Of a stretch of 64,000 nucleotides of DNA, positions 9,334-43,649 are shown in pieces. Position 1 is the first letter of the stretch; the number at the start of each line of letters is the position of its first letter. The position numbers and the translations under genes were made by a program. The stretch comes from a virus: positions 18,735 to 82,734 of the IMG/VR virus record IMGVR_UViG_3300021371_000006, one strand, 5' to 3'. Under the pieces are notes generated by a model. That model was not told the DNA's origin. It made no database searches and saw nothing but the letters and a program-made list of their open reading frames with translations.

Positions 9334-11349
9334 ATGACATTTTTAAGACCTTTAATTTTAGTATTTTTATTTAGTTTATTTAATAACATAATATTTTCTC
9401 AGGAACCCACGAGATGTGGTACTGATATATTATTTGAACAGCAACTAAAAGACCCTAAATTTAAAAGGAGCTACCAAAAACTTGAATCTATAGCGAAAAA
9501 ATCAGAAGAGACGATAAGAATTTCAAACAAATCAGATTTACCTATTACAATTCCTGTAATAGTTCATGTAATTCATTTTGGTGAACCCTACGGAACTGAC
9601 TACCATTTACCTGTGGAATTTATACAAGAAGCTTTTGATAATTTAAATGATAATTTTGCGGGAGAATTTAGTGATGTACCTACTGCAAACACACAGATAA
9701 ATTTTTGTATAGCAAATGCTTCTACTGATGGAGAACCTATTGAAGGTATTAGATATTATGATTGGGATAATTTAAATATAGAGGAGTGGGACGCTACGGC
9801 TTTTTACAATAACCACATTCAAGTATCCAATCAAATTGGATATGATAGAAATAATTATTGTAATGTTTTTATAGCGCCTTTTGGTAGTCCGTTAGGGTTC
9901 GCTTATTTACCCCCAACTAATTATGGGGTATTTATGGGGACTAACGCTTTTGGAATTACTAATGTAGGTAGTTATGGGTTAAATAGAACTCTGGTTCATG
10001 AAATGGGACACTATTGTGGGTTATTTCACACATTTAATCAAACAAGTACATGTACCCCTACCAACACTAACTGTGAAACACAAGGGGATAAAGTATGTGA
10101 TACACCTGTCACTACAGGAAACATTGGATGTCCCTTAAATGGAGGTGCTTGTGGTGGTGATTTAATAGAGAATTTTATGGATTATACTACTGATAATTGT
10201 ATGGAAAGTTTTACCCAAGGACAGACTTTAAGAATGTTATCCCAATTAGAAACTTTTAGACCTGGAGTTGTGGATAATAATTTAGCATGTGGTGCCGTTG
10301 GGGGGATAGACGTTTCTATTAATGGGTTATCAGTTCCTAATTTGGGATGTTCAACCACAAAGGATATAATTTTCAACTTACAGAGTTTTGGTGATACATT
10401 AACTGAAGCCACTATTAATTATTCTCTAAATGGTGAAAGTAGTTCTATTAATTGGGTAGGAAATTTAGGTTTTGCTGAAAGTGAAGTTATAATAATACCT
10501 AATATCAATATAGAATACGGTATCTCAGATATAGAGGTTAATGTAGAAGTATTAGGTGACATATATGAAGATAATAATACTAATACCCTTCAAATTAACA
10601 ATTATGAAGGTACTTTTATAGACATTACTATAGAATTTGATGCTTTACCTTATGGATTCGAATGGAGTCTATACAACTCAGATACTGAGGAATTAATTGA
10701 TGAGGGGGGTTACTATGATAATGAAGTATACGCATGTGAGGTTGAAACTAACACATATTGTTTAGAAGAAGGGAATTATGTTTTAGTTTTAGAAGATTTA
10801 TTTGGAAATGGTATGTTTTACCCTTGTGGGGGTCCGACTTCTATTATAAATGGTAATGACACTCTAAACACAGTAACAGGAAATTGGGGAGATGAAGAGA
10901 TATTACCTTTTTATGTGGGTCCTCCTGTTGATGTATGTCCACCATTAGGTGATTGTCCTTGGGATTTAGATGAAGATGGTATTGTAGGTACCTCTGACTT
11001 ATTTCCTTTACTACAAAACTTTGGATTAACTGTAGAATGTAGTCCGTTAGATTTTAATCAGGATAGTATTATTGGTGTTGACGATATATTAGACTTTATT
11101 TCCGTATTTGGTCTACAGTGTGAGAATGGTATGATGTTAGAAACTGAAATCCCTGAGTCGGTTAAACAAATTATTAATTCTAAAGGAATACAAATTCCTG
11201 AAAATCAAAACACCGTAGAAAATATAGAATACTATAATATCTACGGTGCTAAGATTAATTTAAGTGAGATAACCTCATCAGGAATTTATATTAAGAAAAT
11301 AAAATACACTAATGGTAATTATCAAATTAAGAAAGAGTTCTTTAACTAA
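9334..11349 (+). CDS. secreted M43 (pappalysin-like) metalloprotease with type IX secretion sorting domain
   Basis: A 671-residue protein. The signal peptide is about residues 1-22 (cut after FSQ). The peptidase domain has zinc site HEMGHYCGLFH (from His222), a conserved disulfide-rich insert, and the Met-turn NFMDYT with a later FTQGQTLRM, all as in the M43 family. A beta region of CARDB-like appearance follows. Next come two dockerin/EF-hand-like loops (DLDEDGIVGTSDL and DFNQDSIIGVDDI, about 547-600). The last 45 residues, with NIYGAKINL and SSGIYIKKI, match a type A T9SS sorting domain. The protein should be exported by Sec, then carried across the outer membrane by the host T9SS. Finding such a protein in a phage genome is unusual. 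The start is the first ATG before the signal peptide. Confidence 0.88.
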   Translation: MTFLRPLILVFLFSLFNNIIFSQEPTRCGTDILFEQQLKDPKFKRSYQKLESIAKKSEETIRISNKSDLPITIPVIVHVIHFGEPYGTDYHLPVEFIQEAFDNLNDNFAGEFSDVPTANTQINFCIANASTDGEPIEGIRYYDWDNLNIEEWDATAFYNNHIQVSNQIGYDRNNYCNVFIAPFGSPLGFAYLPPTNYGVFMGTNAFGITNVGSYGLNRTLVHEMGHYCGLFHTFNQTSTCTPTNTNCETQGDKVCDTPVTTGNIGCPLNGGACGGDLIENFMDYTTDNCMESFTQGQTLRMLSQLETFRPGVVDNNLACGAVGGIDVSINGLSVPNLGCSTTKDIIFNLQSFGDTLTEATINYSLNGESSSINWVGNLGFAESEVIIIPNINIEYGISDIEVNVEVLGDIYEDNNTNTLQINNYEGTFIDITIEFDALPYGFEWSLYNSDTEELIDEGGYYDNEVYACEVETNTYCLEEGNYVLVLEDLFGNGMFYPCGGPTSIINGNDTLNTVTGNWGDEEILPFYVGPPVDVCPPLGDCPWDLDEDGIVGTSDLFPLLQNFGLTVECSPLDFNQDSIIGVDDILDFISVFGLQCENGMMLETEIPESVKQIINSKGIQIPENQNTVENIEYYNIYGAKINLSEITSSGIYIKKIKYTNGNYQIKKEFFN

Positions 11350-24297: not shown

Positions 24298-26883
24298 ATG
24301 AGTATGGATATTAACCCAAATTTAAAAAAAGGTGATAGAGTCACTTTAATTGTTATGAGTGACCCTTACTCCCCAATAACTGTCGGCACTAAAGGTACTG
24401 TTATTGGTATTGGGTCTGACCCATGGAGCAATGAACCATTATATTATGTTGAGTGGGATAACGGTAGAACCCTTAATTTAGTTGGTGATGAAGATGTGTG
24501 GGTTAAAGAAAATCAAGATGTAATTAAAGAAGAAATAGACGCGACATCAACAACTCTAAGTAAAATAATGTCTACGTTAGGTCCGATACCAAAAACAAAG
24601 ATGTCTTCAAGTAATGTGATAAAAAAGATTTTAAGTAGTGAAGGACTAACATTTTTTGACATTAATAAAGATATTGATTTAGAAAACACATTAAAAAGAT
24701 TAGTTGATAAAATTAGATTTTATGAGTACTTCTTATCATTTAAAAAAGATAAAGACGGTAGAGGATTTAATTTTGAAGGGTTATTAGCAGGACTTACAGG
24801 AGGTAAACCTATAATATCTCAAAGAAAAGAAGATATAAAAATCGGTGAGGATTATTACTCAGTTAAATTGACACAACCAGGTGAACGATTTGACTTAGGT
24901 TCATTATCTAGTGGGTTTAAGGCCGCAAAAATTAAAATGGTTGAGGATGGGTATGAAATAGATGATTTAAAAAGACCTATAGATTTAATGGATAAAGATG
25001 ATGAGTTTAATCCATATAAAAAACTAATGATGAAAGTATCTTTCGTTGTAGGAGAAACAGAGGGGAAGAGTGCGGTGTCCGGTGAAGAAAAGTCACTAAA
25101 ATGGATTTTTTCTATTTTAAATGATGAATATATTTCATATTGTTTAAATGACACCGATAGTTTAATTGATTTAGTTATTAATAATTATAAAAGTGGGAAA
25201 AGTGTAAATAGTATTTCATTACCACAGGGTAAGGTTGGAGGTGATTGTAAAATTATTACGTTTCCTAAGGTCAGTAATAAAGAAATAAAAAACCTGTTTT
25301 ATCGTAAAGACTCGTATAGAAAAGACGACAAAATATCAGACTTATTTGGAAAATACTCTAAAAATGTCAGGTTTGATATAATTCAATATATTAGAAAAAA
25401 TCCTGATTTATTCTTAAAAAGAGTTATTGATTTATATGGAGATAGACTGGCGAGAATAATGAAAGATAAAGGATTGATAGACCTTCCCAGTCAAATGGAT
25501 GAATCTAAAGAAGATTTATCTAACGTATTAAGAAGTAAAGATATTGACCCGTCAGAAATGGAAGATTTACTATCTCAACTAAAAGATGAGGATATAAACA
25601 ACTTAGTAATAAGAAACTTAGAAAGAAAATTTTTAAAATCAGGTAACCCAAGAATAAACGCCAGAGAATATTTAGAAATCTTAGTTAATTCTATCGGTAA
25701 TAGAAAATCGTCAGAATTTGAAGATGATGATTTTAATGTTGAAGATGAGTTAGTTTACGGAGGCGAGGAGCCTGAGATATCTTCCATAGGTAAAAAACAA
25801 TTTAAAAAAGAGTTACTACCATTACAAGTTGAGTTATTAAAATTACAAGAACACATCAAGCAGACAGGTAAATCTATCGCAGTAGTATTCGAAGGTAGAG
25901 ACACTGCAGGTAAAGGCTCAACGATAAGAACCATAACTAAATATTTAGACCCAAAATATTTTAATGTGGTTGCCTTGGGAATACCAACACCTGAAGAAAG
26001 GGAGGATTGGTTTAAAAGATATGAACAACATATTGAACCTGGTAAAATTACTTTTTTTGACCGTAGTTGGTATAACAGAGGAATTGTGGAACCAGTTATG
26101 GGATATGGAACTGATGAAGAATATGAGGGGTTTATGAATAATGTTAATGATTTTGAAAAGTCTTTAGTTAGTAGGGGAACTGACTTATATAAGTTTTGGT
26201 TATCAATAACACCTAAAACACAAGAAAAAAGATTTGATTTAAGAAAGTCTTCGCCTTTAAAATATTGGAAATTTTCACCTAATGATGAAAAGTCTTTAGA
26301 AAAGTGGGATGACTATACAGAATACAAAGAAAAAGTTTTTGACTTGGGTAAAGGTGAGGTTCCTTGGACTGTTGTGGATACTAACGACAAAAGAATTGGT
26401 TCTTTAAACTTACTTAGACATATATTAAAGAATTCAGATTACCCCGATAAAAATGAGGGTACTATTAGTGATACATATCCTGAGTCTATTACAACAATTA
26501 ATGAAAATTTTATTGATGAAATGAAACCATTACTACCCCTTCTAAAAATGGATAATGGTGGTTATATCTTTGATTTTTTAAAGGCGTTAAGAGATAGTGG
26601 TATTGTTAATATGATGCAATCACCTGATTTTACTTGGAGCGGTAGAGACTTCTTGGAAAAATATTTAAAGATACAAGAATTACAGGGTAGTTACCAACAA
26701 ATTGAAGATGAGGATGAAAAAGAAAACCTGTTGCAACTTGCAGAGAAGTCACAACAGGTTATGATATCAGTAGCATTTAGAAATCTACAAGATAAAGAGC
26801 AAGAGTTAACTACTAATAATATTAACCGAGAATTGAGGAAATTAGGTCCGTTAGCTTTTAAGTATTTTACGGTAAAACTTTAA
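24298..26883 (+). CDS. multidomain fusion: DUF4314-like N-terminus and polyphosphate kinase 2 domain
   Basis: An 861-residue protein. Residues about 8-70 resemble DUF4314 (KGDRVTLIVMSDPYSP, VEWDNGRTLNLV). About 130-190 hold GFNFEGLLAGLTGG and DYYSVKL, faintly reminiscent of nuclease cores. A PPK2 domain follows at about 495-720: Walker A FEGRDTAGKGSTIR (from about residue 534), Walker B FFDRSWYNRG (about 587) and the downstream WKFSPNDEKSLEKWDDYTEY. PPK2 enzymes move phosphate between polyphosphate and nucleotides. The 140-residue C-terminus is helical and unassigned. Family PPK2 proteins are usually about 250-300 residues, so this is a large fusion. It could regenerate nucleotides or ATP during infection. 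TATTTATG lies 16 bp before the start. Confidence 0.88.
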   Translation: MSMDINPNLKKGDRVTLIVMSDPYSPITVGTKGTVIGIGSDPWSNEPLYYVEWDNGRTLNLVGDEDVWVKENQDVIKEEIDATSTTLSKIMSTLGPIPKTKMSSSNVIKKILSSEGLTFFDINKDIDLENTLKRLVDKIRFYEYFLSFKKDKDGRGFNFEGLLAGLTGGKPIISQRKEDIKIGEDYYSVKLTQPGERFDLGSLSSGFKAAKIKMVEDGYEIDDLKRPIDLMDKDDEFNPYKKLMMKVSFVVGETEGKSAVSGEEKSLKWIFSILNDEYISYCLNDTDSLIDLVINNYKSGKSVNSISLPQGKVGGDCKIITFPKVSNKEIKNLFYRKDSYRKDDKISDLFGKYSKNVRFDIIQYIRKNPDLFLKRVIDLYGDRLARIMKDKGLIDLPSQMDESKEDLSNVLRSKDIDPSEMEDLLSQLKDEDINNLVIRNLERKFLKSGNPRINAREYLEILVNSIGNRKSSEFEDDDFNVEDELVYGGEEPEISSIGKKQFKKELLPLQVELLKLQEHIKQTGKSIAVVFEGRDTAGKGSTIRTITKYLDPKYFNVVALGIPTPEEREDWFKRYEQHIEPGKITFFDRSWYNRGIVEPVMGYGTDEEYEGFMNNVNDFEKSLVSRGTDLYKFWLSITPKTQEKRFDLRKSSPLKYWKFSPNDEKSLEKWDDYTEYKEKVFDLGKGEVPWTVVDTNDKRIGSLNLLRHILKNSDYPDKNEGTISDTYPESITTINENFIDEMKPLLPLLKMDNGGYIFDFLKALRDSGIVNMMQSPDFTWSGRDFLEKYLKIQELQGSYQQIEDEDEKENLLQLAEKSQQVMISVAFRNLQDKEQELTTNNINRELRKLGPLAFKYFTVKL

Positions 26884-30038: not shown

Positions 30039-30563
30039 ATGGCAGATAAAAAATATCTTAACGAATCCGGCTCATTTAATGTTCCGAATAAACCTGAAAG
30101 AGAGAAAAGTTCTTATGAAGACTTTATTCTTAAACTTTTAGGTAGAATATTTTTAACTAAACAAGTTTTTTTTGGTATGGATGAGCAAAAAATTGCAATA
30201 ATTATTACACCCACCTTAAAAATAGTTTCGGTAGTAGCTTCTCCATCTAAACTTGTAGATAAATTTCCACAAAAAAGACAACAATTTTTAAATGGAGACG
30301 AACTAATTCGATGGGCTGACGATAACGGTTTTGAGATTACGTTTGTTGCTCCAACTCCACAACTAAAACATAAGCTGTTTAGTATGTTAGGTGACGTAAT
30401 GGTTAGTAACGAAATAAATGAGTCTATAGGTAAGGATAAGGTTAAAATAGTACTTCAGGAACTAAAAAAATCTTCCCTACCTGAGTCTGTTAAACAATGG
30501 GCGATAGATAACCCAGAAAAATTCATTAAGAATATAGAACAGGTTAAGAACCTTCTAGATTAA
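30039..30563 (+). CDS. 174-residue protein of unknown function
   Basis: Starts MADKKYLNESGSFNVPNKPE at 30039 (a GTG three bases upstream is less likely). L-N-E at residues 7-9 could be a cleavage site of the (L/I)xE type. The middle contains KIAIIITPTLKIVSVVASP and ELIRWADDNGFEITFVAP, an alpha/beta domain; the C-terminal third is helical. Not recognised. Confidence 0.6.
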   Translation: MADKKYLNESGSFNVPNKPEREKSSYEDFILKLLGRIFLTKQVFFGMDEQKIAIIITPTLKIVSVVASPSKLVDKFPQKRQQFLNGDELIRWADDNGFEITFVAPTPQLKHKLFSMLGDVMVSNEINESIGKDKVKIVLQELKKSSLPESVKQWAIDNPEKFIKNIEQVKNLLD

Positions 30564-31069
30564 GGTCCTTCCCTATAAAAAGTTAATGAATAACTATATT
30601 CATTACCTTCAACACCCTCTGGATATTGTTTTGGACATTCTAAAATTAAATATTCTAAACCATCCTCTATAATTACGTAATGACGATACGTGTTAAGTTG
30701 TGGGGTATTATAAGAAACATTCATATTAACCCATCGACCTGTAACGAAGTCTTGAGTAATATTAACTGGATATTCTACTCTCCAATGGTCTCCTCCATTT
30801 TCTAAGTAGTATCCAGCAAATAAACGGTCACCACTAATACTAATACGACTCTTATTTACTTTCATGGAATCCAAAGGACCAATAGGGTTAGGGTAGATTA
30901 ATGAAAGAGGGTCGTCGTCTACAAGTTCGGAATTTAATATATCTGTACTGTTTACAGTAATAGACCTAAGGATATATGTGCCGTCCATAGTAGGGTAGGT
31001 ATGTTCCGCATATTGATAACATCCTGAGAAGAGTAAAACTAAAGATAAAAGGGTGAGGTAGTGTTTCAT
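30560..31069 (-). CDS. lipoprotein of unknown function
   Basis: A 169-residue lipoprotein (MKHYLTLLSLVLLFSGC, lipobox FSGC, lipidated Cys17). The mature domain is beta-rich (GTYILRSITVNS, SRISISGDRLFAGYYLENGG) and looks like a lipocalin-like barrel. A clean host-type promoter is at 31074-31104, 5 bp upstream, so the mRNA would be nearly leaderless. It is likely expressed early and displayed on the host envelope, where superinfection exclusion is one possibility. Confidence 0.7.
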   Translation of the reverse strand: MKHYLTLLSLVLLFSGCYQYAEHTYPTMDGTYILRSITVNSTDILNSELVDDDPLSLIYPNPIGPLDSMKVNKSRISISGDRLFAGYYLENGGDHWRVEYPVNITQDFVTGRWVNMNVSYNTPQLNTYRHYVIIEDGLEYLILECPKQYPEGVEGNEYSYSLTFYREGP

Positions 31070-31104: not shown

Positions 31105-31135
31105 TAAATAGACATATTTTTTGATATTTATAGGT

Positions 31136-32113
31136 ATGATTAAGAAGATTTTATTAATTTTTGGGTTTTTAAGTTTGTTTGCAATAGGTTTTTCTCAAGA
31201 CGTTTCATTTTCACAAATAAACGGTAGTGTTTTGTACTTGAATCCCGCATTCGCTGGGTCAAGGAATTGTCCTGAGTTAAGTATGACATATAGAAATCAT
31301 TGGCCATCATTAGGTAGTCAATACGTAACTAGCGTTGTAACTTACGAACAATATATTAGAGATTTGAAAAGTGGTTTCGGTATATTAATGATGAATGATA
31401 GGTCCGCCAATGGAATATACTCATTAAATTCATTTAACACCTATTATAGTAATCAACAAAAACTAACTAATAATTTAAATATTAAATTTGGTTTGGAATT
31501 TAGTTATAAGCAAAATTTCATAGATAGTAAAAAACTGTTCTTTGAAGATTCTTTTAACGGTGTCGCGTTTACTAATTACACAAATGAATCTTTTTTAAAT
31601 AACTTTAAAGTTAATTATTTTGATGTAGGTACAGGAATACTTTTATTTAATCATAAATGGTTTGCAGGATTTAGTGTGTCACATATAAACCAACCGAACC
31701 AAACGTTAATATATGGAGAAAGTTACTTACCAGTAAAATATAATATTCACGGAGGGGTGATAATACCCTTAGATAAATCTACCGATAGGAATGAAGACGT
31801 GACTTACACACCATCAATTTCAATACTACGACAAGGTCAGTTCACACAACTAACATTAAATAATAATATTAGAAAAGGTAAGTTCTTATTTGGTGGTGGG
31901 TTAAGACTTGTAGAAGGATACTCTTATAGGGATGCTTTATTATTAAATATGGGTGTAGATACGGGAGAATTAATGTTCTTTTACAATTATGATGTTACTA
32001 TATCACAATTAGGTCCCACCACAGGTGGTGCTCATGAAATATCTGTTGTAATAAAAATAAACAATAAAACAAGTGAAAAAAAAATTACAGTTCCTTCTTG
32101 TTCTTTTCAGTAG
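31136..32113 (+). CDS. porP/sprF-like: PorP/SprF-family outer-membrane protein (type IX secretion)
   Basis: A 325-residue protein. Signal peptide MIKKILLIFGFLSLFAIGFSQ, then SQINGSVLYLNPAFAGSRN and MTYRNHWPSLGSQYVTSVVT, the hallmark opening of PorP/SprF, followed by a KSGFGILMMNDRSANG segment and alternating beta strands consistent with a 14-stranded barrel. In Bacteroidota these proteins partner with type B T9SS substrates and attach or export them at the outer membrane. The phage also encodes a type B substrate at 37985. I used the ATG at 31136 because the ATG 15 bp upstream would place charged residues before the signal. A TATTTATA octamer ends 3 bp before it. Confidence 0.85.
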   Translation: MIKKILLIFGFLSLFAIGFSQDVSFSQINGSVLYLNPAFAGSRNCPELSMTYRNHWPSLGSQYVTSVVTYEQYIRDLKSGFGILMMNDRSANGIYSLNSFNTYYSNQQKLTNNLNIKFGLEFSYKQNFIDSKKLFFEDSFNGVAFTNYTNESFLNNFKVNYFDVGTGILLFNHKWFAGFSVSHINQPNQTLIYGESYLPVKYNIHGGVIIPLDKSTDRNEDVTYTPSISILRQGQFTQLTLNNNIRKGKFLFGGGLRLVEGYSYRDALLLNMGVDTGELMFFYNYDVTISQLGPTTGGAHEISVVIKINNKTSEKKITVPSCSFQ

Positions 32114-32300
32114 ACAAATCCCATAGTTCTTTTCTGATATGATTTGCGAACTCTTCATCTGACATACATTTAAGACGATTAATACTATATTTACGATAAA
32201 ACCACCAGTTAAAAGTATTAGTTTCTTTTTTAAAAGGACCCACAATAATTTTAGATACTTCGAAAAATGTCTTAAGGAATGTGTTTTTTAATTTACTCAT
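32085..32300 (-). CDS. 71-residue protein of unknown function
   Basis: The start at 32300 (MSKLKNTFLKTFFEVSKIIV) is preferred because an upstream ATG would lie inside the promoter -7 box. Basic, amphipathic N-terminus; C-terminal half DEEFANHIRKELWDLSTEKN. Probably early-expressed. Convergent with the PorP gene. Confidence 0.6.
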   Translation of the reverse strand: MSKLKNTFLKTFFEVSKIIVGPFKKETNTFNWWFYRKYSINRLKCMSDEEFANHIRKELWDLSTEKNKKEL

Positions 32301-32303
32301 ATA

Positions 32304-32335
32304 CAAATATAAATACTTTGTATTAGATAAACAAA
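32304..32335 (-). promoter_or_regulatory. Bacteroidota-type promoter
   Basis: Minus-strand -33 TTTG (32332-32335), 20-bp gap, -7 TATATTTG (32304-32311), 3 bp before the ATG at 32300. Predicts a leaderless or near-leaderless mRNA. Confidence 0.72.
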
Positions 32336-32357
32336 TTTTACTCCATATTTATCACAT

Positions 32358-33068
32358 ATGAGTCTATTACAAGAAAATATAATTCGTATTAAAAACCTAA
32401 TGAACATCACTGAAAGTGAATCTTTATTTCCTTCAGAAGATAGAAACCATTTGGAAAACTTTGTTGACTTAGTCGTAAAAGAATTAGGTATAAAAAATGA
32501 GGTCAATATTGATTATACTGAAGATAAGTCTAAAGTAGAGACAACTGCAGTTTACAGATATGAAGATGGTGAAAATGCAGATATAGAAAATGCAGAGGTT
32601 ACTGTATATACTAAAGAAAGGGCACTACAAGACATTATGAGGTCAGTAGCGCACGAATTAGTACACCACCATCAAAATGAAGAAGGTGAATTAAAAGGTA
32701 AAATACAGAATGTTGGTGGACCTATAGAAGATGAAGCAAACGCGGTTGCTGGTGAGTTACTTAAAAAATATGGATTACAACATCCTGAAATATATGGTGA
32801 AGAAGAATTTCCCGCAGATGAGGAAGTGACAGAACAAGATGATGCAGGTGGAGATACTGGTGGAAGTACAACTGATGGTGGAGGTGACTCATCCTCAACA
32901 AATGCAGGGGTAACCACATGGGAAACAGGTTTAACTCGTGGACCCGCTAATCAAATAACTATAACTGTATGGTCAAATAATATTAATAGAGGTAAGGGAA
33001 ATATGATTGACCAAAACAGTAAATGGGAATCAGGAATAAATAGAGATAAATCTAATACCTTAACTTAA
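32358..33068 (+). CDS. leader-bearing HExxH metallopeptidase-like protein
   Basis: A 236-residue protein. Leader MSLLQENIIRIKNLMNITES ends I-T-E followed by S, matching prohead protease rules. Zinc signature SVAHELVHHHQNEEGE at about residue 96, then a helix with GGPIEDEANAVAGELL that could supply a third ligand. C-terminal 80 residues are low-complexity Gly/Ser/Thr/Asp and then TITVWSNNINRG. A metalloprotease carried in the head could act on host protein right after injection (inference). First of five consecutive genes of this type. Confidence 0.7.
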   Translation: MSLLQENIIRIKNLMNITESESLFPSEDRNHLENFVDLVVKELGIKNEVNIDYTEDKSKVETTAVYRYEDGENADIENAEVTVYTKERALQDIMRSVAHELVHHHQNEEGELKGKIQNVGGPIEDEANAVAGELLKKYGLQHPEIYGEEEFPADEEVTEQDDAGGDTGGSTTDGGGDSSSTNAGVTTWETGLTRGPANQITITVWSNNINRGKGNMIDQNSKWESGINRDKSNTLT

Positions 33069-33095
33069 TATTGATTAAAGGCATATTTATAAATA

Positions 33096-34121
33096 ATGAG
33101 TAATAACATATCTATACAAATTAATGAAATTAATAGACTTATGAATTATGATAGGTCTAAATCACTGTTAGAACAACCTGACTCTTTTATGGACAGAAAA
33201 TACGGTATATCAAGTAGAAACGCTAAAGAATTAGGAATGAATATTGATGAATACGAAAAACTAGTTTTCCATCCTCAGATGACAGTAGATGAGTTGGCGT
33301 CCGCACTATGTGGTGATAATAGTCCATTTGCGGGTTTATTTAAAATACCCTGGATTGAATATAAATCTGAAGAGTTACTCTGTGACGTTTTAGCGGGTCT
33401 ATTAATGGCTTTTGGTCCTGTAGGTATTGCTGCGGGTATGTCTATTGAATTTTTACACGCGAAGGATTTATGGAATAAAGGGGATAAAATAGGTGCAGTC
33501 ATTTCTATGACAATTGGATTAATTCCTGTTATAGGTGATGCTGCAGGAAAAGGACTTAGAATACTGATACAAAAATTAGGGACTTCGGGAATTTCTAAAG
33601 TTGCTAGAATAATGGTATTGATGATTAAATTCCTAAGCGGCGAGGTCAAAGCTAGTACACTTATAAGAGCAAAAAAAGCTTTATCTGCCGACGAAAGATT
33701 AATGTTATATAATCTTTTATCAACAGGAGGTGACATATTCTCAAAAGTATCAAAACTTGGAGACGAATTAGGTGAACTAGCATCAAAACTTGAGGAACTC
33801 AATATACCGTTTTTATCAGATTCCGTAAAAAAAATACAAGAGGTGTTAAATACAAGTAGTATATTTTCTACACTAGGTGATGCTGTTGCACAAACATCAT
33901 CAATTATGTCGGCAGTTTTTGGTATGTACTTTGTCGGTGAGGTATTAACATGTGACCCATCAGACAATTCATTTGAGGCGTTTGACCAACAAATTGAAGA
34001 CTCTTATAACATGTTAGAGGATATGGGAGACGAAGAGTTTAATAAGTTGCTCGAAACCGATTTAAAATCATTAGGTATTGAGGTACCTATAAAAGACGAA
34101 AACACTAATAAAGATGAGTAA
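33096..34121 (+). CDS. leader-bearing probable packaged protein with hydrophobic core
   Basis: A 341-residue protein. The leader starts MSNNISIQINEINRLMNYDR and ends LLE before QPD (residue 27). Residues about 105-165 form hydrophobic, Gly-rich helices (LAGLLMAFGPVGIAAGMSIE and IGLIPVIGDAAGKGLRIL), like the pre-toxin segments of polymorphic toxins or pore-forming ejection proteins. The C-terminus is acidic. It may be a membrane-active injected protein. TATTTATA lies 4 bp before the start. The end overlaps the next gene by 8 bp. Confidence 0.65.
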   Translation: MSNNISIQINEINRLMNYDRSKSLLEQPDSFMDRKYGISSRNAKELGMNIDEYEKLVFHPQMTVDELASALCGDNSPFAGLFKIPWIEYKSEELLCDVLAGLLMAFGPVGIAAGMSIEFLHAKDLWNKGDKIGAVISMTIGLIPVIGDAAGKGLRILIQKLGTSGISKVARIMVLMIKFLSGEVKASTLIRAKKALSADERLMLYNLLSTGGDIFSKVSKLGDELGELASKLEELNIPFLSDSVKKIQEVLNTSSIFSTLGDAVAQTSSIMSAVFGMYFVGEVLTCDPSDNSFEAFDQQIEDSYNMLEDMGDEEFNKLLETDLKSLGIEVPIKDENTNKDE

Positions 34122-35817
34122 AATACTTATAAGTGAAACAGAAAAAAATCATATTTTAAATCTTTATGATTTAAATACTGATAACAACTTATTAATTGAA
34201 AGGAGAGGTTTAAAACGTGTCGCTAAAGATTTGGTTAAGCGTTTTAAAGGTCAGGGTCATGATGGAATGATATTCACTAGTGACGCAATTAAAAGGGTAG
34301 TTGATAATCAAGAAGGTTACGTATTTGATAGTAATACTCCAGGAAGTCGCGAATTGGTTTATTTGGAAGGTGAGGATTTTATTAATCAGTTAGAACGTAC
34401 TATTCCTAATATGGACGCCGCGGCAATGCACATGTTTATGAGAAACAATGACCCCACATATATGAGTGAGTACGTATTTAATGTATTAATACCTAAATAT
34501 CAAAAAGCTGATGATACTACAAGAGCCTCAATAGAAGCTCTTTTAGATGGATTATTAGACAAGTATTTAACAACAAACGAACACATAGGTACTGGAGGGT
34601 ATTCGAGAATTCAAGGTCAACTTGAAAGAGTTTTAAACACGGTACGAAGTGATGAATTTAAAAATGCTCAAAACAAATCAGCAAAAATAAGAATGTTAAA
34701 CGGTACTATTCCTGATGTAGATGGTCGTTTAGGTAATTTTATTGATAATATTCCTGGGTTTGCCAAAGAATTAAGACAGACTGCAAGGTTTTTAGCCGAT
34801 AGGAAAAAAACATATATACAGGTACAACAAGATTTAGATAGACTTATACGAAATAGTTCGGATGAATCGTCACCTAAAGATGCTCAAAAAATATTGGAAA
34901 AATTAAATGTTTTAGAAGTAAAACAAAATAACGCCGCAAACGAGTTTTATAAAAAAATAAGGAGAAGTAAGGATATACCTGCCGAATTAAAGGTAAATCT
35001 AAAAGAATTAGTCGAAGCAAGAGGTATACAGGCGGTATGGGATATTGGTTCAGAGAGTAAACCTGGTGGTATTTTACACTCTATGTTTGAGGACTTTACC
35101 GAAACAGGACGTATTATAGGTATGCTCAGAAGCAAGAAAACGTTTTGGGAAGGTATTAAGAGGGCGATAAGTAATATTCTAGCTTATGGTATTAACGGAA
35201 ACTTAGCAACTTTTAGGTCATTAAATAGAAAAATAATACAATCAAGTAGTGGTAAAAAAGGTACTTTATTAACCTTACTTAGAACGGCATTTACAACATT
35301 TACTGCACCTGTAACGGCATCCGCAATAATTTACCTACTTGACATTATGAAACTTCTAGGTCAATCTGCCGGATTTGATGTGGACAGACTATGGAAAACA
35401 GAGGAAGGAAGTTGGTGGTCGTGGGCGACTAGTGTTATACTTAATCAATTATCCTCAGCTAGTGAAGGTGGAATACTAAGTTATATGCCCGTACTTAGAG
35501 GACCACTAACTAAATTCTTAGTGTGTTATTATAACGGTGGAGGGCCAGAATGTGTGAGAGATGCCATGGATGGTATTACAGAAGAAAGTATTGAAAATAC
35601 TGAGGCTTCAGTAGTGGGATATCAAGATACCGAACAGTCTTTTGAGTCGTACCTAAGAGATAAAGACATCATATATTCAAATGTCGGAAAGGGAGATGAT
35701 GATGGTACATATTGGCACCGAAATAGAGGAAGTGGAGCGCCAGGTTCAGGACAAAAATATTGGTGGGAATTCAACGGAACAGATTTTATCTGTGATAATG
35801 ATGAGTTTAATAATTGA
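34114..35817 (+). CDS. leader-bearing probable packaged protein, 567 residues
   Basis: The leader starts MSKILISETEKNHILNLYDL and ends LLIE before RRG (residue 29). Residues 30-330 are helical and basic (GLKRVAKDLVKRFKGQGHDG), which suits DNA-binding inside a head. A hydrophobic patch (TAFTTFTAPVTASAIIYLLD) is at about 390-410 and an aromatic Gly-rich C-terminus ends the protein. No known enzyme family. Lies in a tightly packed operon with the flanking leader-bearing genes. Confidence 0.6.
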   Translation: MSKILISETEKNHILNLYDLNTDNNLLIERRGLKRVAKDLVKRFKGQGHDGMIFTSDAIKRVVDNQEGYVFDSNTPGSRELVYLEGEDFINQLERTIPNMDAAAMHMFMRNNDPTYMSEYVFNVLIPKYQKADDTTRASIEALLDGLLDKYLTTNEHIGTGGYSRIQGQLERVLNTVRSDEFKNAQNKSAKIRMLNGTIPDVDGRLGNFIDNIPGFAKELRQTARFLADRKKTYIQVQQDLDRLIRNSSDESSPKDAQKILEKLNVLEVKQNNAANEFYKKIRRSKDIPAELKVNLKELVEARGIQAVWDIGSESKPGGILHSMFEDFTETGRIIGMLRSKKTFWEGIKRAISNILAYGINGNLATFRSLNRKIIQSSSGKKGTLLTLLRTAFTTFTAPVTASAIIYLLDIMKLLGQSAGFDVDRLWKTEEGSWWSWATSVILNQLSSASEGGILSYMPVLRGPLTKFLVCYYNGGGPECVRDAMDGITEESIENTEASVVGYQDTEQSFESYLRDKDIIYSNVGKGDDDGTYWHRNRGSGAPGSGQKYWWEFNGTDFICDNDEFNN

Positions 35818-37238
35818 TTAAAATGATTTTAAAAGAACAATCTACTAATTGTGTATGGAATGTTAGAGACACTAAAATAACTAAACCACCTTCTATAAGT
35901 TTGCCAGGAAATAATAATTGGACTTATGGTGATTGGGTAGGACCAAAATCAGAAAATGAATGGAAAACAATTATAAATGGGGAATGCCAATGTTATGACC
36001 TATGGATAGACGGTAGTTCAAATAGTCGTAGTGGTAGTGCATACGTAAAATATGTCGGAGGAAGTGGATGTTCTAATAGTGTTACTACACCACCTACACC
36101 ATCTCCTACACCATCTCCTACAACACCACCTACCCCAGGAGGAACACCGCCATCACCACCCGCAAGACAAAAAAGTGGTAGAGAGTTAAAAAAAGAGAAA
36201 TTAAATTTAGGTAAAAGCGGTGTAAGCTCAACTGTAAATCAACAATTTAGAGATGTGGTCGATTACTTGAAAGGTATACCTTGTGGAAGAGTTTGGCCTT
36301 TAATATTCGTTCAAAGAGAACCAAACAGTCAATACGAAGATGAGAGAATTGTCTTTTTTGCTGATTCACAAACAGGTAGAAAAAATATACCGTTACCGAT
36401 AGAAGAAAGAGGTGGAAAATGGGGTTTTATAGACCCGCCGAGTAGTGGTTCATGGCAAGAATTTTCAGATTCTAATTGGTGTACAAATAAAGTTAATGAA
36501 GGGTTAAAAGACGTATTAAAAGAAAATGAAATGGAAAATTCAATACCAGAAAAAATAGATGAAAAGTTAAAAGAATTTAATTTTTATACTGCAAATGACA
36601 AAGGAAAACAAAAAGTAGTTTTTACAGATAAAGACCGTGAAGAAATAAATAAAGAATTTATGGATTTAATGAAAAAATATCCTGAAGACATTGCATTTAT
36701 TAGGTCAGTAGTAGTCGCTAAAGGTGAAGATAAAAAAACGGGAGAACCTGTCGTTAGATTGGGTTCTTACTATAATAATGCAAATATTGAACTTCCTTTT
36801 AATTCTCAGATGAATGGATTAGGTAAATTATTGGACGGTGGTATAATATATTTTACCATTACTAATAATGAGGGTCCTGATTATAGAGATTTTAAGATAG
36901 TCGGTGGTGATAAGATACCTGAAGTTGAATTTGGAGGGGGAGAAAAAGAGGAAATACAAAGAGATAGTTATATCAACACACATAATCAATCGATGAAAAA
37001 AGAACAACCTTTTGAAGAGGTTATGAAGGGTAAAGAAAAGAAAGGTTTACAGTCATTACTAAATGGGGAAGGTCTTACAAACGAATTTACGAAGTCTCAG
37101 AAGGAATTTTTAGAAAACTTAAAAAAAAAAGGTTTTAAACTTAAAAAACCTGAAAACTCAGATATTTATGAAAGAGTGAGAGTTAATAGTAAGGAATTCA
37201 CAGAATCAATAAATGCGTGGAAACCCAAAGAAAAATGA
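35814..37238 (+). CDS. leader-bearing protein with Pro/Thr linker, 474 residues
   Basis: Short leader MIKMILKEQ (I-L-K-E before Q). An N-terminal WTYGDWVGPKSENEWKTI domain is separated from a larger C-terminal part by a Pro/Thr/Ser linker (about residues 85-115). The C-terminal domain has VWPLIFVQREPN and an Asp/Lys-rich helical tail. Unrecognised. It overlaps the preceding gene by 4 bp and the next by 4. Confidence 0.6.
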   Translation: MIKMILKEQSTNCVWNVRDTKITKPPSISLPGNNNWTYGDWVGPKSENEWKTIINGECQCYDLWIDGSSNSRSGSAYVKYVGGSGCSNSVTTPPTPSPTPSPTTPPTPGGTPPSPPARQKSGRELKKEKLNLGKSGVSSTVNQQFRDVVDYLKGIPCGRVWPLIFVQREPNSQYEDERIVFFADSQTGRKNIPLPIEERGGKWGFIDPPSSGSWQEFSDSNWCTNKVNEGLKDVLKENEMENSIPEKIDEKLKEFNFYTANDKGKQKVVFTDKDREEINKEFMDLMKKYPEDIAFIRSVVVAKGEDKKTGEPVVRLGSYYNNANIELPFNSQMNGLGKLLDGGIIYFTITNNEGPDYRDFKIVGGDKIPEVEFGGGEKEEIQRDSYINTHNQSMKKEQPFEEVMKGKEKKGLQSLLNGEGLTNEFTKSQKEFLENLKKKGFKLKKPENSDIYERVRVNSKEFTESINAWKPKEK

Positions 37239-37870
37239 GTCTAAAACACATAGTTAAAAAGAATCTAATAGAATTAGAAACTAAAAAACTTAATAGTCTT
37301 ACTGAATCTAAAATTGTTAAAGGAAGATTAGGTATTATATCTGAGTCTGTTAACTTTAATTCTAAAATTCATACCACCAAATTCTTTAATAAATTATTTT
37401 TAGAGGCTAATCATTTGATAAAAATGGGTATTAGTGAATCCGTAGTTAATGAAGATTTAATTATGACACTTAAAGGTATTATGGGTGATGATGGTTCTAA
37501 AGTTATAGACACGTTAAAAGATAAGTTATTATTTTTTTTAGAGGGTAAACTTAATATTGATGGTTTTGAAAAGGATGTATTGTCTCAGACAATATCAGAA
37601 ATTGAAGAAGAGGAATTTTCTAAAATATTTACGGATAAGAAGTTCTTACCGAGAAGTATCGCCGATGTATTCACAAGAGAATTTGAAGAAAAATACTTAG
37701 AAGGACTTACAGATACGACAAAAGAAATTGTGATGAAGCAAATTGATAACGATAGATTTAAAAGAGATATTGAAGATAAGTTTACAACGGCGTTGGAATC
37801 TTTATTGGATTCCATTGAGTCAAATATGGACTCGAAATTGAGAGGCATTAGAGATAAGGTCTTCTCATAA
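37235..37870 (+). CDS. leader-bearing helical protein, 211 residues
   Basis: Start MSLKHIVKKNLIELETKKL at 37235 overlaps the preceding stop (ATGA). Three (L/I)xE candidate sites (LIE, LTE, ISE) lie in the first 40 residues. The remainder is acidic helical, with FEEKYLEGLTDTTKEIV. Last of five leader-bearing genes; terminators follow. Confidence 0.6.
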   Translation: MSLKHIVKKNLIELETKKLNSLTESKIVKGRLGIISESVNFNSKIHTTKFFNKLFLEANHLIKMGISESVVNEDLIMTLKGIMGDDGSKVIDTLKDKLLFFLEGKLNIDGFEKDVLSQTISEIEEEEFSKIFTDKKFLPRSIADVFTREFEEKYLEGLTDTTKEIVMKQIDNDRFKRDIEDKFTTALESLLDSIESNMDSKLRGIRDKVFS

Positions 37871-37904
37871 ACTTTTAAAAAAAGGGGGTAAAATTAAATC
37901 TATG

Positions 37905-37933
37905 AAAAGGACTGGCGGTGTCAGTCCTTTTTT
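37905..37933 (+). terminator. rho-independent terminator of the packaged-protein operon
   Basis: AAAAGGACTG pairs with CAGTCCTTTT around a GCGGTGT loop, followed by a T-tract. It ends transcription of the 32358-37870 operon. Confidence 0.85.
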
Positions 37934-37940
37934 CTTATAT

Positions 37941-37972
37941 AAAAAAAAGTGACCCGAAGGTCACTTTTTTAT
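37941..37972. terminator. bidirectional terminator
   Basis: AAAAAAGTGACC pairs with GGTCACTTTTTT around CGAA, working in both directions. It backs up the operon terminator and ends the type B protein transcript, which arrives from the other side. Confidence 0.85.
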
Positions 37973-37984
37973 TTAATCGATTGT

Positions 37985-40981
37985 TTACCTGAGAACGGTT
38001 ATATAACCACTCGTATCCAAGACCTCCAAATTCCATGCCACTGCCCTAATTGTGTAAGCGTAAACTCCGTCTTGTACGTAATGCCCACCATTATTAAAAC
38101 TTCCATCCCATCTTCCATTAGGGTTATCGATTTTAAAGACCACTTGACCCCATCTATTGAAAATAGATACTTCCCATGTGTTCCAACACTCTTCGTCGGT
38201 TATTACCCCCCAAGAATCGTTTAAACCGTCATTATTAGGACTAAATGCGTTAGGTGCAAATGCCTGACCGTCGAATTCATCACAAGGACTAGGAAAAACA
38301 CAAGTACCATCTTCTATCGTCGCTTCAAAATTATAATTTAATGCGTCCATGTTAGTACATCCAAACACGTCATATTCACATGACCCATCATTTACATTTG
38401 CGAACATATTATAATTGTTAGCGTTTAAATCGGTACACCCTAATATATCGTAAGTACAACTACCATCATCCACGTTAGCAAGTGAATTATAATTGTTAGC
38501 ACTTTCATCAGTACACCCAAATACATCATATTCACAAGAACCGTCATCGACTGTAGCTAAGAGGTTATAATTATTTGCGGTTGAGTCTGTACAGCCGAAA
38601 ACGTCATAAGTACAAGACCCATCGTCCACGTTAGCTGTTGAGTTGTAGTTATTTGCTTCTTCATCTGTACAACCATAAATATCATACGTACATGTACCAT
38701 CGTCTAAATTCGCATTGGGATTGTAATTATTAGCGCTTTCATCGGTACATCCGAATATATCGTAAGTACAACTACCATCATCCACATTTGCGTCAGGATT
38801 ATAGTTATTAGCAGTATCGTCGATACATCCCGCAACATTGCAATTAATTCCGGAATCTCCGATTGTAAGGACAAGTATATTATTACTAATATTATCATCT
38901 TCTCCGAAATTTTCCCATGAGTTAGGACTCTCACCATTTACGTCTAAAACGTGTACACTAACAACACCATATGAGTATATGGGGTTAGGCCACTCAATAG
39001 AGATATCACCGAATGAGTTTATTGTTGTACCCATCGCATTAAAACAAATAGTGTCGTTTGTTTGTCCTAAGACTTGAACTTTAATACAGTATTCATTTAT
39101 CGCGGGATTGGTTAGATTGTTTAGATGTAACGTAGGAACCCAGTATGGGGTAAATCCGTCACAGTATTCGTTTATAGTTATACTATCTAATGATAAATCA
39201 ACCATATATTCACAACTTCCATCATCCTCAGTTGCTAACGGATTATAATTTTCCGCTATTGGGTCTGTACATCCTAAAACAAGACATACATCGGGGTCAC
39301 TTATATTATTTAAGTATAAGAACGTATTGTTATATGAATATTCATCAATCTCACCTTCAACATCATATACATTAATTGTTAGTTGAGTTATAAAATCAGG
39401 TACATTAATAGTCCATATTAACTGACCCCCACCAGGTTCAATCCAATCAGTACCGTTTAAATTACCATTTAAACAAGTATCAAGACCTAATTCAGGTACT
39501 TCTACACAATACACAAATAATGTGTCATTTGAATTAAAATTACCCGTATCAGGGTTAACTACTATTATACTAATTTCGTTAGAAACTATCCCGTCATCAC
39601 ACACTGCATTTACAAATGAAACATATCCACCTGCGTCAGGAGTATATATTACTTCATCATCACAGTCGAATAGATTACTATAAAACTCCCAATAAGTGCT
39701 ATCGCCATGATATTCATTACATAATTCTTCTCCCTCTGGAGTATCACAATATATACATGAGTCATCATTTTCGGTTGCTTGTTGATTATAATTACAAGCG
39801 ATAGGGTCTTGACAACCGTATACAGGTGCAAAAGTACAAGTCCCGTCATCATACCCCGCATTACCATTAAAGTTTTCTGCTAAAGGGTCAGTACAACCAG
39901 GGTAAATAGGGGGTGGTGCATCACATACATTAATAGAATTTAATTCCATTGATATGTCAGGATAAAACTGTGTTTGGTCCGCACATAATCCACACGTCTG
40001 GGCCCAACCACCATCAATTTCACCAATAATCGCAGTTTCCGAATAGTTTATTTGCCATAATACAACTTCCAAACATGAAGTTAATGTATCAGACTCTAAG
40101 ATACTTTGGAAACAATCATCATAAAATGTATCGTCAGCAAACATATTATAATTTATTGTATCACCCGCGTAATACTCAGCAAATGATACAGGATTATCAA
40201 ATGTCCATCCTAAATGATATTCAGATGCGGTACAACCCCATTCATAATCCCAACCAGGTACGTGTGCACCTATTTGAACCATATTTACATAATCCATTTG
40301 TCCCGACTGACCCACCGTATTTAAAGAAGTGCCACAGTTCCAATGTGATACTACTTCAATACTTACGTCATATGTTTCAGGGTCAAATCCAAGGAAATTA
40401 ACATCACAATCACAAAACGCATCATTATTTACATCAGGACAATCAGTATTAAAAGGTCCGTAGTATGGTGTTCCGTCTGAGTTATATACCCAAGCGCCAT
40501 CAGCTAACCCACAACTACCTAACCTAAGATTAAATTGTGACCAAGCCCCATCAAAAGGGAAAGATAAACCATAATACGCCCATTCCATAGACTCTTCCCA
40601 CGATAAATCATTTACTCCACCAGGACCTGGGTCTTCAGGAAACCATGAAGGGAGATTTGGAATGTCGAACCAAGGGGTTGTTATTGTCCTAGTCTGACCA
40701 GGAGGTAAGGGTCCAACATTGTTGTTTGAGGTATAATCTATGGTCCATATTGGTGCACTTGAATTAAGTGACCAATACATCTTAAGTACGTCCCCTTCCC
40801 ATTCACTACCCGAATTGTTTGTAACGTCAAATTGAAACTTGACACCACTACCATTATCAGTGACGACTACAGAACCCTGTTCTATAAAAACGTCACATTG
40901 AGCCCTTAATACTACTGAAAACAAGAGCATTAAAGGTATTAAAAGCACACGGCGTGCCTTATTAAAAAAAGTAAAATTCAT
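37985..40981 (-). CDS. giant exported protein with GCTD repeats and T9SS type B (gliding-motility) C-terminal domain
   Basis: A 998-residue protein. Signal peptide about residues 1-27 (LLIPLMLLFSVVLRAQ). An N-terminal beta-rich part (about 28-330) follows. Ten copies of a Cys-containing unit of the form GCTDxxAxNYN...DDGSC occur between about residues 365 and 900, seven of them back to back. The C-terminal about 95 residues (PNAFSPNNDGLNDSWG, SIFNRWGQVVFK, WDGSFNNG, DGVYAYTIRA) are the gliding-motility-associated, type B T9SS sorting domain. The protein should be exported and attached or released at the cell surface, probably with a PorP/SprF partner such as the one at 31136. A phage-encoded T9SS substrate of this size is unusual. 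A TATTTATA element lies 37 bp upstream. Confidence 0.9.
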   Translation of the reverse strand: MNFTFFNKARRVLLIPLMLLFSVVLRAQCDVFIEQGSVVVTDNGSGVKFQFDVTNNSGSEWEGDVLKMYWSLNSSAPIWTIDYTSNNNVGPLPPGQTRTITTPWFDIPNLPSWFPEDPGPGGVNDLSWEESMEWAYYGLSFPFDGAWSQFNLRLGSCGLADGAWVYNSDGTPYYGPFNTDCPDVNNDAFCDCDVNFLGFDPETYDVSIEVVSHWNCGTSLNTVGQSGQMDYVNMVQIGAHVPGWDYEWGCTASEYHLGWTFDNPVSFAEYYAGDTINYNMFADDTFYDDCFQSILESDTLTSCLEVVLWQINYSETAIIGEIDGGWAQTCGLCADQTQFYPDISMELNSINVCDAPPPIYPGCTDPLAENFNGNAGYDDGTCTFAPVYGCQDPIACNYNQQATENDDSCIYCDTPEGEELCNEYHGDSTYWEFYSNLFDCDDEVIYTPDAGGYVSFVNAVCDDGIVSNEISIIVVNPDTGNFNSNDTLFVYCVEVPELGLDTCLNGNLNGTDWIEPGGGQLIWTINVPDFITQLTINVYDVEGEIDEYSYNNTFLYLNNISDPDVCLVLGCTDPIAENYNPLATEDDGSCEYMVDLSLDSITINEYCDGFTPYWVPTLHLNNLTNPAINEYCIKVQVLGQTNDTICFNAMGTTINSFGDISIEWPNPIYSYGVVSVHVLDVNGESPNSWENFGEDDNISNNILVLTIGDSGINCNVAGCIDDTANNYNPDANVDDGSCTYDIFGCTDESANNYNPNANLDDGTCTYDIYGCTDEEANNYNSTANVDDGSCTYDVFGCTDSTANNYNLLATVDDGSCEYDVFGCTDESANNYNSLANVDDGSCTYDILGCTDLNANNYNMFANVNDGSCEYDVFGCTNMDALNYNFEATIEDGTCVFPSPCDEFDGQAFAPNAFSPNNDGLNDSWGVITDEECWNTWEVSIFNRWGQVVFKIDNPNGRWDGSFNNGGHYVQDGVYAYTIRAVAWNLEVLDTSGYITVLR
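38284..38840 (-). repeat. seven consecutive GCTD repeats (about 78 bp each)
   Basis: A run of about 26-residue units (FGCTDxSANNYN...DDGSCxYD). DNA copies differ mostly at synonymous or loop positions, so the array is old and selected rather than freshly duplicated. Confidence 0.85.
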
Positions 40982-41018
40982 TAATTTATAGGTTTACTTG
41001 TTTATGAAGAACTACACC

Positions 41019-41026
41019 TATAAATA
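41019..41026 (-). promoter_or_regulatory. TATTTATA element upstream of the type B protein
   Basis: Octamer in gene direction, 37 bp before the ATG at 40981. The same wide spacing occurs in front of the scaffold gene. Confidence 0.35.
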
Positions 41027-43048: not shown

Positions 43049-43612
43049 TCACTTTCGAACATTTACTACAGAATAATAAGTATTTGTTTCTCGGTCATAA
43101 AGAACTGATACAGAAATATAGTTATACTTACTATTTGTTAAAATTTTCCAGTGTGGGGGACTTTTTTGATACTGTAAAAAAAACTGAGAAACATTATTAA
43201 CATCCGACCTATGATTAGACCCACAACATTCACCACAAGTATCAAAACCCGCCCAATCAATCCGATTTGTGAAACTGTTATACCCTTCACCATGACCAAC
43301 TTTACCTGTTTTTACCTGATTTTCATTCCAAGGCACAGTCAGTAGAGATTCCATGTCATCATCGTATTCTAATCCATTCAATCCATGATTTACTCTCCAT
43401 TCGTTTAATGTATTTACAAAACGTTTTTCCATTTCCCAACAAAGAGAATCAATATTTACCTGAGGTACTGGTGTTGGGATATATCCTTCACATGAAACTT
43501 CAACCTCATTACCCTTATCATCAATATAATAACATTTAGCACCTTCCCATGTAATTTGAGATGTGGTCGTTAATGAAATCAAACAAAAAAGGAGGGGTAA
43601 TAGATTCTTCAT
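43049..43612 (-). CDS. secreted CAP/SCP-domain protein
   Basis: A 187-residue protein with a signal peptide (MKNLLPLLFCLISLTTTSQ). A CAP (SCP/PR1-like) fold follows, with LNEWRVNHGLNGLEYDDDM, GHGEGYNSFTNR and HWKILTNSKYNYISVSVLYD. Family members have lipid-binding, protease-like or signalling roles. The cysteines CGECC may form disulfides. The start at 43612 rather than 43618 is preferred since TATCTTTA with a CAAA-type -33 box is just upstream. A phage-carried secreted CAP protein is unusual. Confidence 0.75.
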   Translation of the reverse strand: MKNLLPLLFCLISLTTTSQITWEGAKCYYIDDKGNEVEVSCEGYIPTPVPQVNIDSLCWEMEKRFVNTLNEWRVNHGLNGLEYDDDMESLLTVPWNENQVKTGKVGHGEGYNSFTNRIDWAGFDTCGECCGSNHRSDVNNVSQFFLQYQKSPPHWKILTNSKYNYISVSVLYDRETNTYYSVVNVRK

Positions 43613-43649
43613 AAACATAAAGATAGTGAAAGTTTTTCTTTATACAAAC

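Follow-up and report, generated by a model that had tools for sequence, protein, structure and literature searches.

A phage-encoded PorP/SprF-family protein and a type B cargo protein of the type IX secretion system in a predicted jumbo phage of Bacteroidota

In Flavobacterium johnsoniae, type B cargo of the type IX secretion system (T9SS) requires a cognate shuttle of the PorP/SprF family, with some cross-talk, and depends on five motifs of its sorting domain (PMC12618676), while the tail of SprF carries a Cys-X-Cys motif, the second cysteine of which bonds GldK and supports gliding (PMC12635249). In Porphyromonas gingivalis, PorP binds the type B protein PG1035 and anchors it on the surface (PMC9143113). 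Among phages, the closest described case is Cryophage, for which Bellas et al. (2020) described type A sorting domains in three variable genes, a finding termed by these authors a unique occurrence (PMC7468147). Here we describe a 64,000-nt stretch of DNA (hereafter the window; bases 18735-82734 of the 82,734-bp IMG/VR virus record IMGVR_UViG_3300021371_000006), which encodes both a PorP/SprF-family outer-membrane protein and a 998-residue T9SS cargo protein with a type B domain.

The PorP gene lies at 31136..32113 on the plus strand and encodes 325 residues, of which Q21 appears by eye to be the first of the mature protein, following a signal peptide. It matches PF11751 with 153.5 bits (cut-off 22.3) and TIGR03519 with 177.9 bits (cut-off 90.55), the latter over profile positions 1-291 of 292 and nearly the whole protein. 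The cargo gene (37985..40981, minus strand) encodes a clear hydrophobic stretch followed by Q, which by eye is a putative Sec signal peptide, then a conserved N-terminal region, CTD/DDGSC cysteine repeats and, at the very C-terminus (residues 909-996 of 998; 37994..38257, minus strand), a CHU_C domain that scores 64.4 bits with PF13585 (cut-off 27) and 46.1 bits with TIGR04131 (cut-off 35). Both assignments had been proposed in a first-pass annotation made from the letters alone, and the curated Pfam and NCBIfam profiles bear them out; its statement that type B cargo depends on PorP/SprF-family partners agrees with what is described for F. johnsoniae (PMC12618676) and P. gingivalis (PMC9143113). 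By analogy with these systems, the function we propose for the window PorP is the export and binding of type B cargo, and we consider it rather probable that the phage provides a carrier for its own cargo, which would be exported by the host machine and displayed on the infected cell.

The window encodes a terminase large subunit, a portal protein and a head maturation protease that match PHROG 2, 213 and 207, together with 12 tRNA genes, and its sequence identifies the contig as that of a tailed (caudoviral) phage, apparently with the jumbo-phage genome of a Bacteroidota-infecting virus. A scan of IMG/VR with the window PorP retrieved three further records of this phage (G001, G002 and G003), of 270 (G001), 115 and 55 kb and with three distinct metagenome ids, which are more than 99% identical to the window's record over most of the shared length, both genes included. 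The first 4.4 kb of the record have 97.9% identity to these further records, short stretches by its start do not align to them, and the block 32106-36094, between PorP and cargo, is replaced in G001 and G002; in G003 the replaced block (31738..36124, no strand assigned) includes the last third of PorP. Diversifying selection, considered as an explanation of the G003 PorP (83% identity in its best segment), was rejected, as the differences, bar two scattered changes, start at 31738 and continue to 36124; since they run on with the replaced block, they represent one recombination tract. A profile-guided scan added a diverged relative, G400 (71 kb), in which PorP is 61%, the cargo 77% (994 codons; 80% for cargo residues 901-998) and a neighbouring lipoprotein 74% identical, and the gene order is kept. 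A chimeric assembly of host and phage DNA, against which the first-pass annotation had cautioned, is made very unlikely by the repetition of the pair in the three additional records and, diverged and in the same order, in G400. Between the window and G400, the ratio of nonsynonymous to synonymous substitution (NG86 dN/dS) is 0.156 for PorP, whose dS of 1.83 approaches saturation; the cargo gives 0.150, the terminase 0.041 and a secreted CAP-domain protein the highest ratio, 0.34. Given the diverged pair in G400 and the low ratios, PorP and cargo are established genes of this phage lineage, maintained intact.

The pairing is not confined to this phage. The PorP-pattern scan of IMG/VR yielded 34 matching stretches, six of which encode a relative: G001, G002, G003, G400, G401 and a 5-kb fragment with PorP truncated by the contig end. 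The five records with full-length PorP were reached without the use of the cargo, and a CHU_C protein above the Pfam cut-off is found in all six records when that of the window is included (four of the six being one phage). G401 (22 kb), which has terminase and portal genes, encodes PorP, then a short lipoprotein-like protein and then a PKD/CHU_C cargo. In G448 (18.6 kb), reached via the cargo and not by the PorP scan, PorP is convergent with a gene for a 1417-residue PKD/CHU_C cargo (TIGR04131 36, cut-off 35); it is probably a phage contig. Scanning with the sorting domain led from 96 matching stretches to 51 loci, and PorP is present in five of these records (G001, G002, G003, G400 and G448). 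Of 50 records searched for PorP, namely the 47 of the 51 loci beyond those already seen to encode it plus G400, G401 and G402, three are above the cut-off (G400, G401, G448) and the G402 fragment is below it. As far as can be judged from sequence, the pair thus recurs in at least one other phage (G401) and probably in a third kind (G448), which extends the co-occurrence further than the first-pass annotation had claimed. The window PorP has no match at 1e-3 among 50,697 named-phage records. The sole match of the G401 and G448 PorPs in this collection, MT836089.1 (a 13-kb unverified faecal record), was rejected as likely bacterial contamination, since it encodes PorK next to its PorP and no gene of phage type was seen in it.

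We envisage that the phage encodes a type B T9SS cargo together with its own PorP/SprF-type carrier, that both would cross the inner membrane via the host Sec route, and that PorP would be inserted and folded in the outer membrane. Threading of the cargo outward would fall to the translocon and motor of the host T9SS, whereupon the phage PorP would capture the emerging C-terminal domain and retain the cargo on the surface of the infected cell, probably being tied through its cysteine tail to the host GldJ/GldK track or hub. Export, pairing and attachment are what we infer for the two proteins. With the carrier brought along, the phage would be independent of the fit to the host SprF. The first-pass annotation had supposed that the phage borrows the T9SS motor of its host; the host translocon would likewise be borrowed, since SprA_N was found in none of seven phage records (fragments; the motor and other T9SS parts were not profile-searched), as opposed to two matches in the one bacterial genome searched alongside. 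As to the use of such a display, our guess is an altered cell surface, with superinfection exclusion (rival phages being kept off) or adhesion as the likeliest purposes. The candidate roles put forward in the first-pass annotation were a remodelled surface of the infected cell, the blocking of receptors and the use of polymers as food during a long infection.

The AlphaFold2 model of PorP is a predicted 14-strand barrel (mean confidence, pLDDT, 72.3) that resembles chain F of the T9SS complexes 8gl6 and 6h3i (Z 23.9 and 23.7), which we take to be the shuttle PorV; no sequence relatives of the window PorP were found in the PDB at E<=1. Following the last strand is a cysteine, C322 (codon 32099..32101, plus strand), which is invariant in 11 aligned PorPs, all five phage ones among them. 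A cysteine within the last 16 residues is found in 35 of the 43 bacterial PorPs of our tree set, as compared to an expectation of 2.7% from the rest of the protein; by neighbour, it is present in 10/10 bacterial PorPs adjacent to GldJ, 0/2 adjacent to GldK and 7/11 adjacent to a CHU_C cargo. The window pair resembles SprF-SprB of F. johnsoniae in its PorP/SprF-family barrel, its CHU_C/TIGR04131 cargo and the tail cysteine after the last strand, but it differs in being phage-encoded and non-adjacent, in the single tail cysteine of PorP in place of Cys-X-Cys, and in the CTD/DDGSC repeats of the cargo. Since the cysteine is kept but the Cys-X-Cys motif is not, we propose the attachment of PorP to the gliding track only tentatively. 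The likeness to the PorP-PorE-PG1035 system of P. gingivalis would lie in the way PorP keeps a type B protein, uncleaved, at the cell surface, as described in PMC9143113, with the difference that PorP there serves the cell's own T9SS.

The surroundings of the PorP gene indicate that it is an additional gene between two neighbouring phage genes. Divergent from it is a gene for a putative lipoprotein (30560..31069, minus strand; lipobox by eye, no Pfam or PHROG match), and on its other flank lies a phage gene at 32358..33068 (plus strand) with 44-47% identity over 61-69 residues (E about 1e-7) to homologues in the sister phages L126, L127 and L129. In these three the same gene string runs up to the lipoprotein and is followed directly by the homologue of the 32358 gene, with no PorP between them, and a profile search did not find PorP elsewhere in their records, all of which are fragments. 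Both a gain in the window lineage and a loss in the sisters could account for this difference. A post hoc observation concerns the cargo leader, where an inverted repeat, ATTTATAGGT / ACCTATAAAT, is located just before the start codon (40982..41025, minus strand); the 10-mer ATTTATAGGT also directly precedes the PorP start (window 31126-31135), and G001 contains eight copies on both strands.

The origin of the phage PorPs was studied with a tree of 43 bacterial and five phage sequences. For the bacterial rows the window PorP served as query, supplemented by a profile search of two genomes, and the sample therefore leans to its relatives; 59 profile hits were reduced to 44 by dropping those shorter than 250 residues and duplicates, and one 622-residue frame was also left out. 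At 1e-5, the window PorP had matches in 81 of 395 genomes from the phylum, and a scan with the L011 PorP alone gave no match. Supported branches require at least three changes of the phage label if G448 is counted as a phage, which suggests that PorP was acquired by phages at least three times, or fewer if G448 is not viral. A single clade (100/100) unites the PorPs of the window, G003 and G400. It stands beside PorPs with GldJ as neighbour (93/70 for the nearer fork; 92/86 for a wider fork of 13 rows, two of them cargo-linked), which puts the window PorP, at moderate support, in one group with bacterial PorPs adjoining gldJ. The G448 PorP is nested among PorPs adjacent to CHU_C cargo (100/99), and the tree leaves that of G401 without a placement, within a wide open fork. 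The neighbours of the nearest bacterial PorPs score 475.6 (L011), 461.2 (L097) and 450.1 (L094, just under) with the NCBIfam GldJ profile (cut-off 458.2), which points to GldJ and not PorK/GldK as their identity. Among 12 tree rows first tagged GldK, 10 are GldJ-adjacent and two (L053, L054) GldK-adjacent, three neighbours being identified by NCBIfam and the remainder by BLAST. On the opposite flank in L094, L095, L097 and L100, the genes (about 1,275 and 410 codons) are presumably porU and porV.

A number of observations weigh against a phage carrier dedicated to phage cargo. FadL barrels fit the PorP model about as well as the T9SS chains do (Z up to 25.0 vs 23.9 and 23.7), and the structure prediction of the cargo is unusable (pLDDT 33.6). 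The Cys-X-Cys tail of SprF is not present in the window PorP, which has a single cysteine, and the tails of the G003 and G400 PorPs have two cysteines spaced wider than Cys-X-Cys. In the window lineage the two genes are 5.9 kb apart, on opposite strands and with the swapped block between them; genes of the PorP system of P. gingivalis need not be neighbours. In G003 the last third of PorP has been swapped and the cargo is nearly unchanged, a combination that might be incompatible with tight cognate pairing. One in-frame TAA (L168:8419-8495) interrupts the cargo gene of G401, which may reflect an error, decay or recoding, and the sorting domain of this cargo passes the Pfam cut-off (33.5 vs 27) but misses that of TIGR04131 (21.5 vs 35). 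The phage signs of G448 are restricted to tail-tube-type evidence on one protein, which matches an unnamed PHROG (E 1e-18) and a family of tail-tube proteins (E 1e-6), with no terminase found, which makes its viral nature less sure. PorP was not found in 46 of the 51 phage records with type B cargo, most of them fragments, and a phage-borne carrier is therefore not generally required. Some of these records are uninformative, namely G403-G406 (72-100% identical cargo relatives), whose contigs end 2.7-4.7 kb past the domain and thus stop short of the 5.9 kb that separate PorP in the window; in G407 and G408 (50% cargo relatives) PorP was not seen within the 19-21 kb or so covered on that side. 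It is also conceivable that the cargo has a role in the virion, as its repeat stretch resembles a protein of cyanophage S-CAM3, annotated as virion structural in one of four records; the apparent signal peptide makes this less favoured.

A rival reading is that the phage proteins interfere with the host T9SS: phage PorP and sorting domains would contend with the type B cargo of the host for access to translocon, carriers and track, so that fewer host adhesins would be displayed and later phages or gliding blocked, the export of phage cargo being secondary. Under phage exposure, Flavobacterium columnare acquires resistance through gld and spr mutations (PMC9233685), which suggests that a phage might want control of the gliding/T9SS system, and many phage records carry T9SS sorting domains without PorP. 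In particular, proteins in which a signal-peptide-like start is joined to nothing but a type B domain, above the CHU_C cut-off, are encoded by G001 (123 residues), LR756502 (116 residues) and LR745206 (a 126-residue frame), and such a protein of 111 residues is found, by tblastn only, in the 476-kb record G439; these might be decoys. The bare domain of G001 (198475-198846), the second type B protein of that record, scores 52.7 bits with PF13585 but falls below the TIGR04131 cut-off (24.5 vs 35), and bare-domain frames occur in bacteria too, albeit rarely: frames of at most 135 residues were four (two of these at the end of a contig) among the 150 matches listed for the 61 genomes searched in the phylum, as compared to three of the nine matches in the three large phages that were searched whole and had any (G001, LR756502 and LR745206). 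Moreover, the domains of the 998-residue cargo are long, conserved and subject to purifying selection, beyond the needs of a decoy, and we regard interference as the main function as rather unlikely, more probable nonetheless than the explanations that follow. We would give no greater credence to a more speculative, two-sided programme of Bacteroidota jumbo phages, in which some would import a dedicated PorP that latches by its tail cysteine to the gliding track or hub and carries a phage adhesin about the surface of the infected cell, and several would clog host carriers with bare sorting domains, stripping the host adhesins needed by other phages.

The placement of the window PorP near gldJ-adjacent bacterial PorPs, apart from most of those adjacent to CHU_C cargo, and the presence of other host-type helpers among the phage genes (DnaK, DnaJ, a ClpB-like ATPase and ClpP) would fit a takeover of the host system, with phage PorP supplementing or replacing that of the host to sustain the T9SS/gliding track during a long infection and the co-occurrence with cargo being incidental. 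However, the PorPs of G401 and G448 adjoin their own type B cargo, the latter grouping with cargo-linked bacterial PorPs, and SprA_N was not found in the seven phage records; we find this scenario improbable. Least of all do we believe in a neutral capture of host genes, or an artefact of assembly, without function for the phage. Bacterial genomes do contain such pairs, the phage-collection record MT836089, with PorP beside PorK, is a probable bacterial contaminant, and terminase was found in only 16 of the 54 virus records searched (in G401, not in G448), where even a match is no proof of a virus, as the terminase profile also gave matches in 11 of 14 bacterial and archaeal genomes used as controls. 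Nonetheless, four records of one phage and a diverged one concur, dN/dS is near 0.15, PorP is embedded in conserved phage synteny, and a second phage with terminase and portal (G401) has the pair. The display of phage cargo by a phage carrier remains the reading that we prefer.

Among phages, Cryophage shares with the window the presence of sorting-domain genes whose products would use the host machine and which vary between variants, but its domains are of type A, the genes concerned are two of glycoside-hydrolase type and one with PA14, and neither PorP nor SprF is mentioned in the text (PMC7468147). Three huge phages, LR756501, LR756502 and LR745206 (considered Mahaphages on size; PMC7162821), share about 0.45 kb of polyphosphate kinase 2 (PPK2) DNA at 67-69% identity; above the cut-offs, all three carry type A domains, two carry type B domains (three in LR756502, four in LR745206, none in LR756501) and none carries PorP. 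Neither secretion or the T9SS nor the outer membrane or TonB is referred to in the main text of that study (PMC7162821). Moraphages likewise are aquatic, have Bacteroidota hosts and encode DnaK, DnaJ and glutamine synthetase, a likeness limited to shared genes, and PorP and TonB do not occur in the main text of their description (PMC12619734). The first-pass annotation knew of no described phage with both cargo and its T9SS partner; this stands for the carrier, as we found no published phage PorP/SprF in the open-access literature, and not for the cargo, given the type A proteins reported for Cryophage in 2020 (PMC7468147).

The same annotation had counted as a second cargo an M43 protease with a type A tail. 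The protease is corroborated (9334..11349, plus strand; 671 residues, predicted to be secreted; PF05572 54 bits), whereas the tail is not: the whole protein has no type A sorting match in Pfam or NCBIfam at E 0.01, PF18962 was not found in G000-G003 at E<=1, the tail taken by itself has no NCBIfam match at E<=1 and a single Pfam match, to an Ig-like family and below threshold, and hhalign against three phage type A tails gives a probability of 0.3%. By eye the tail is type-A-like, as is that of a 76%-identical homologue in L176, a resemblance that none of the tests supports, and the window thus contains one confirmed cargo and not two. A FAS1 protein of G001 (217002-218060) has a similar-looking tail, likewise without a profile match. 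In the related 66-kb record (L176:2273-12739), FAS1, the M43 protease, a 511-residue CHU_C protein and a TonB receptor are encoded close together.

Several further features deserve a brief description. The CAP-domain protein (43049..43618, minus strand; 189 residues, PF00188 31.3 bits, signal-peptide-like N-terminus) is encoded close to the cargo in both the window and G400. The bare-domain proteins of the four large phages are located at G001:198475-198846, L259, L260 and L149:5149-5484. Sorting-domain proteins of 176-212 residues make up 23 of the 46 listed (48 of the 51 loci were read, and two proteins cut at the contig end were left out), and most of twelve such loci compared contain a three-gene set, with two proteins that have signal-peptide-like starts and end in ..HN (the second PKD-like), followed by an Ig-like and CHU_C protein; it is located at L126:8522-10270 and also occurs in L120, L121, L127, L129, L135, L137, L152 and L155, and reads like an SprB-type adhesin split into separate subunits. 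A complete TonB-dependent receptor of 917 residues (G001:228082-230835; L026:8082-10835, minus strand) has Pfam plug, barrel and carboxypeptidase-like domains and matches PHROG 5687; its relatives were found in 439 IMG/VR stretches, of which 80 loci were kept, possibly with host contamination among them, and L172-L175 are collinear with G001. PorP was found in none of the 49 records tested from these 80 loci, in a search whose controls also gave no match. The phage DnaK and ClpP lie at window 18194-20074 and 2454-3125, with DnaJ and the ClpB-like ATPase also phage-encoded; ribosomal protein S21 is encoded at 61218-61403 (minus strand; PF01165 42.1 bits) and a DUF4314-PPK2 fusion at 24298-26883 (plus strand), while G001 contains an ATP-type phosphoenolpyruvate (PEP) carboxykinase (218175-219647) and a glutamine synthetase (226180-227250). 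Finally, many proteins (window 32358-37870 and elsewhere) share by eye the N-terminal pattern 'ILISExEKxxILxLY..', often followed by E(Q), which could be a head-targeting propeptide removed by the head protease.

In the literature that we found, the earlier report of T9SS cargo in phages concerned type A domains in one phage; the phage described here also encodes a carrier of the type on which type B cargo depends. Phages seem to have acquired PorP repeatedly, and each time it was found alongside type B cargo. The phage carriers and sorting domains may serve as small probes of cargo recognition by the PorP/SprF family, a subject left for further work by the authors of PMC12618676, and the redecoration of infected cells by a phage through the host secretion system is testable in F. 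johnsoniae. Should the two-sided programme outlined above prove true, phages would in general capture the T9SS as a means to superinfection exclusion and to the control of cell movement. In any case, similar pairs in other phages suggest that these viruses may display proteins of their own on the surface of the cells that they infect.

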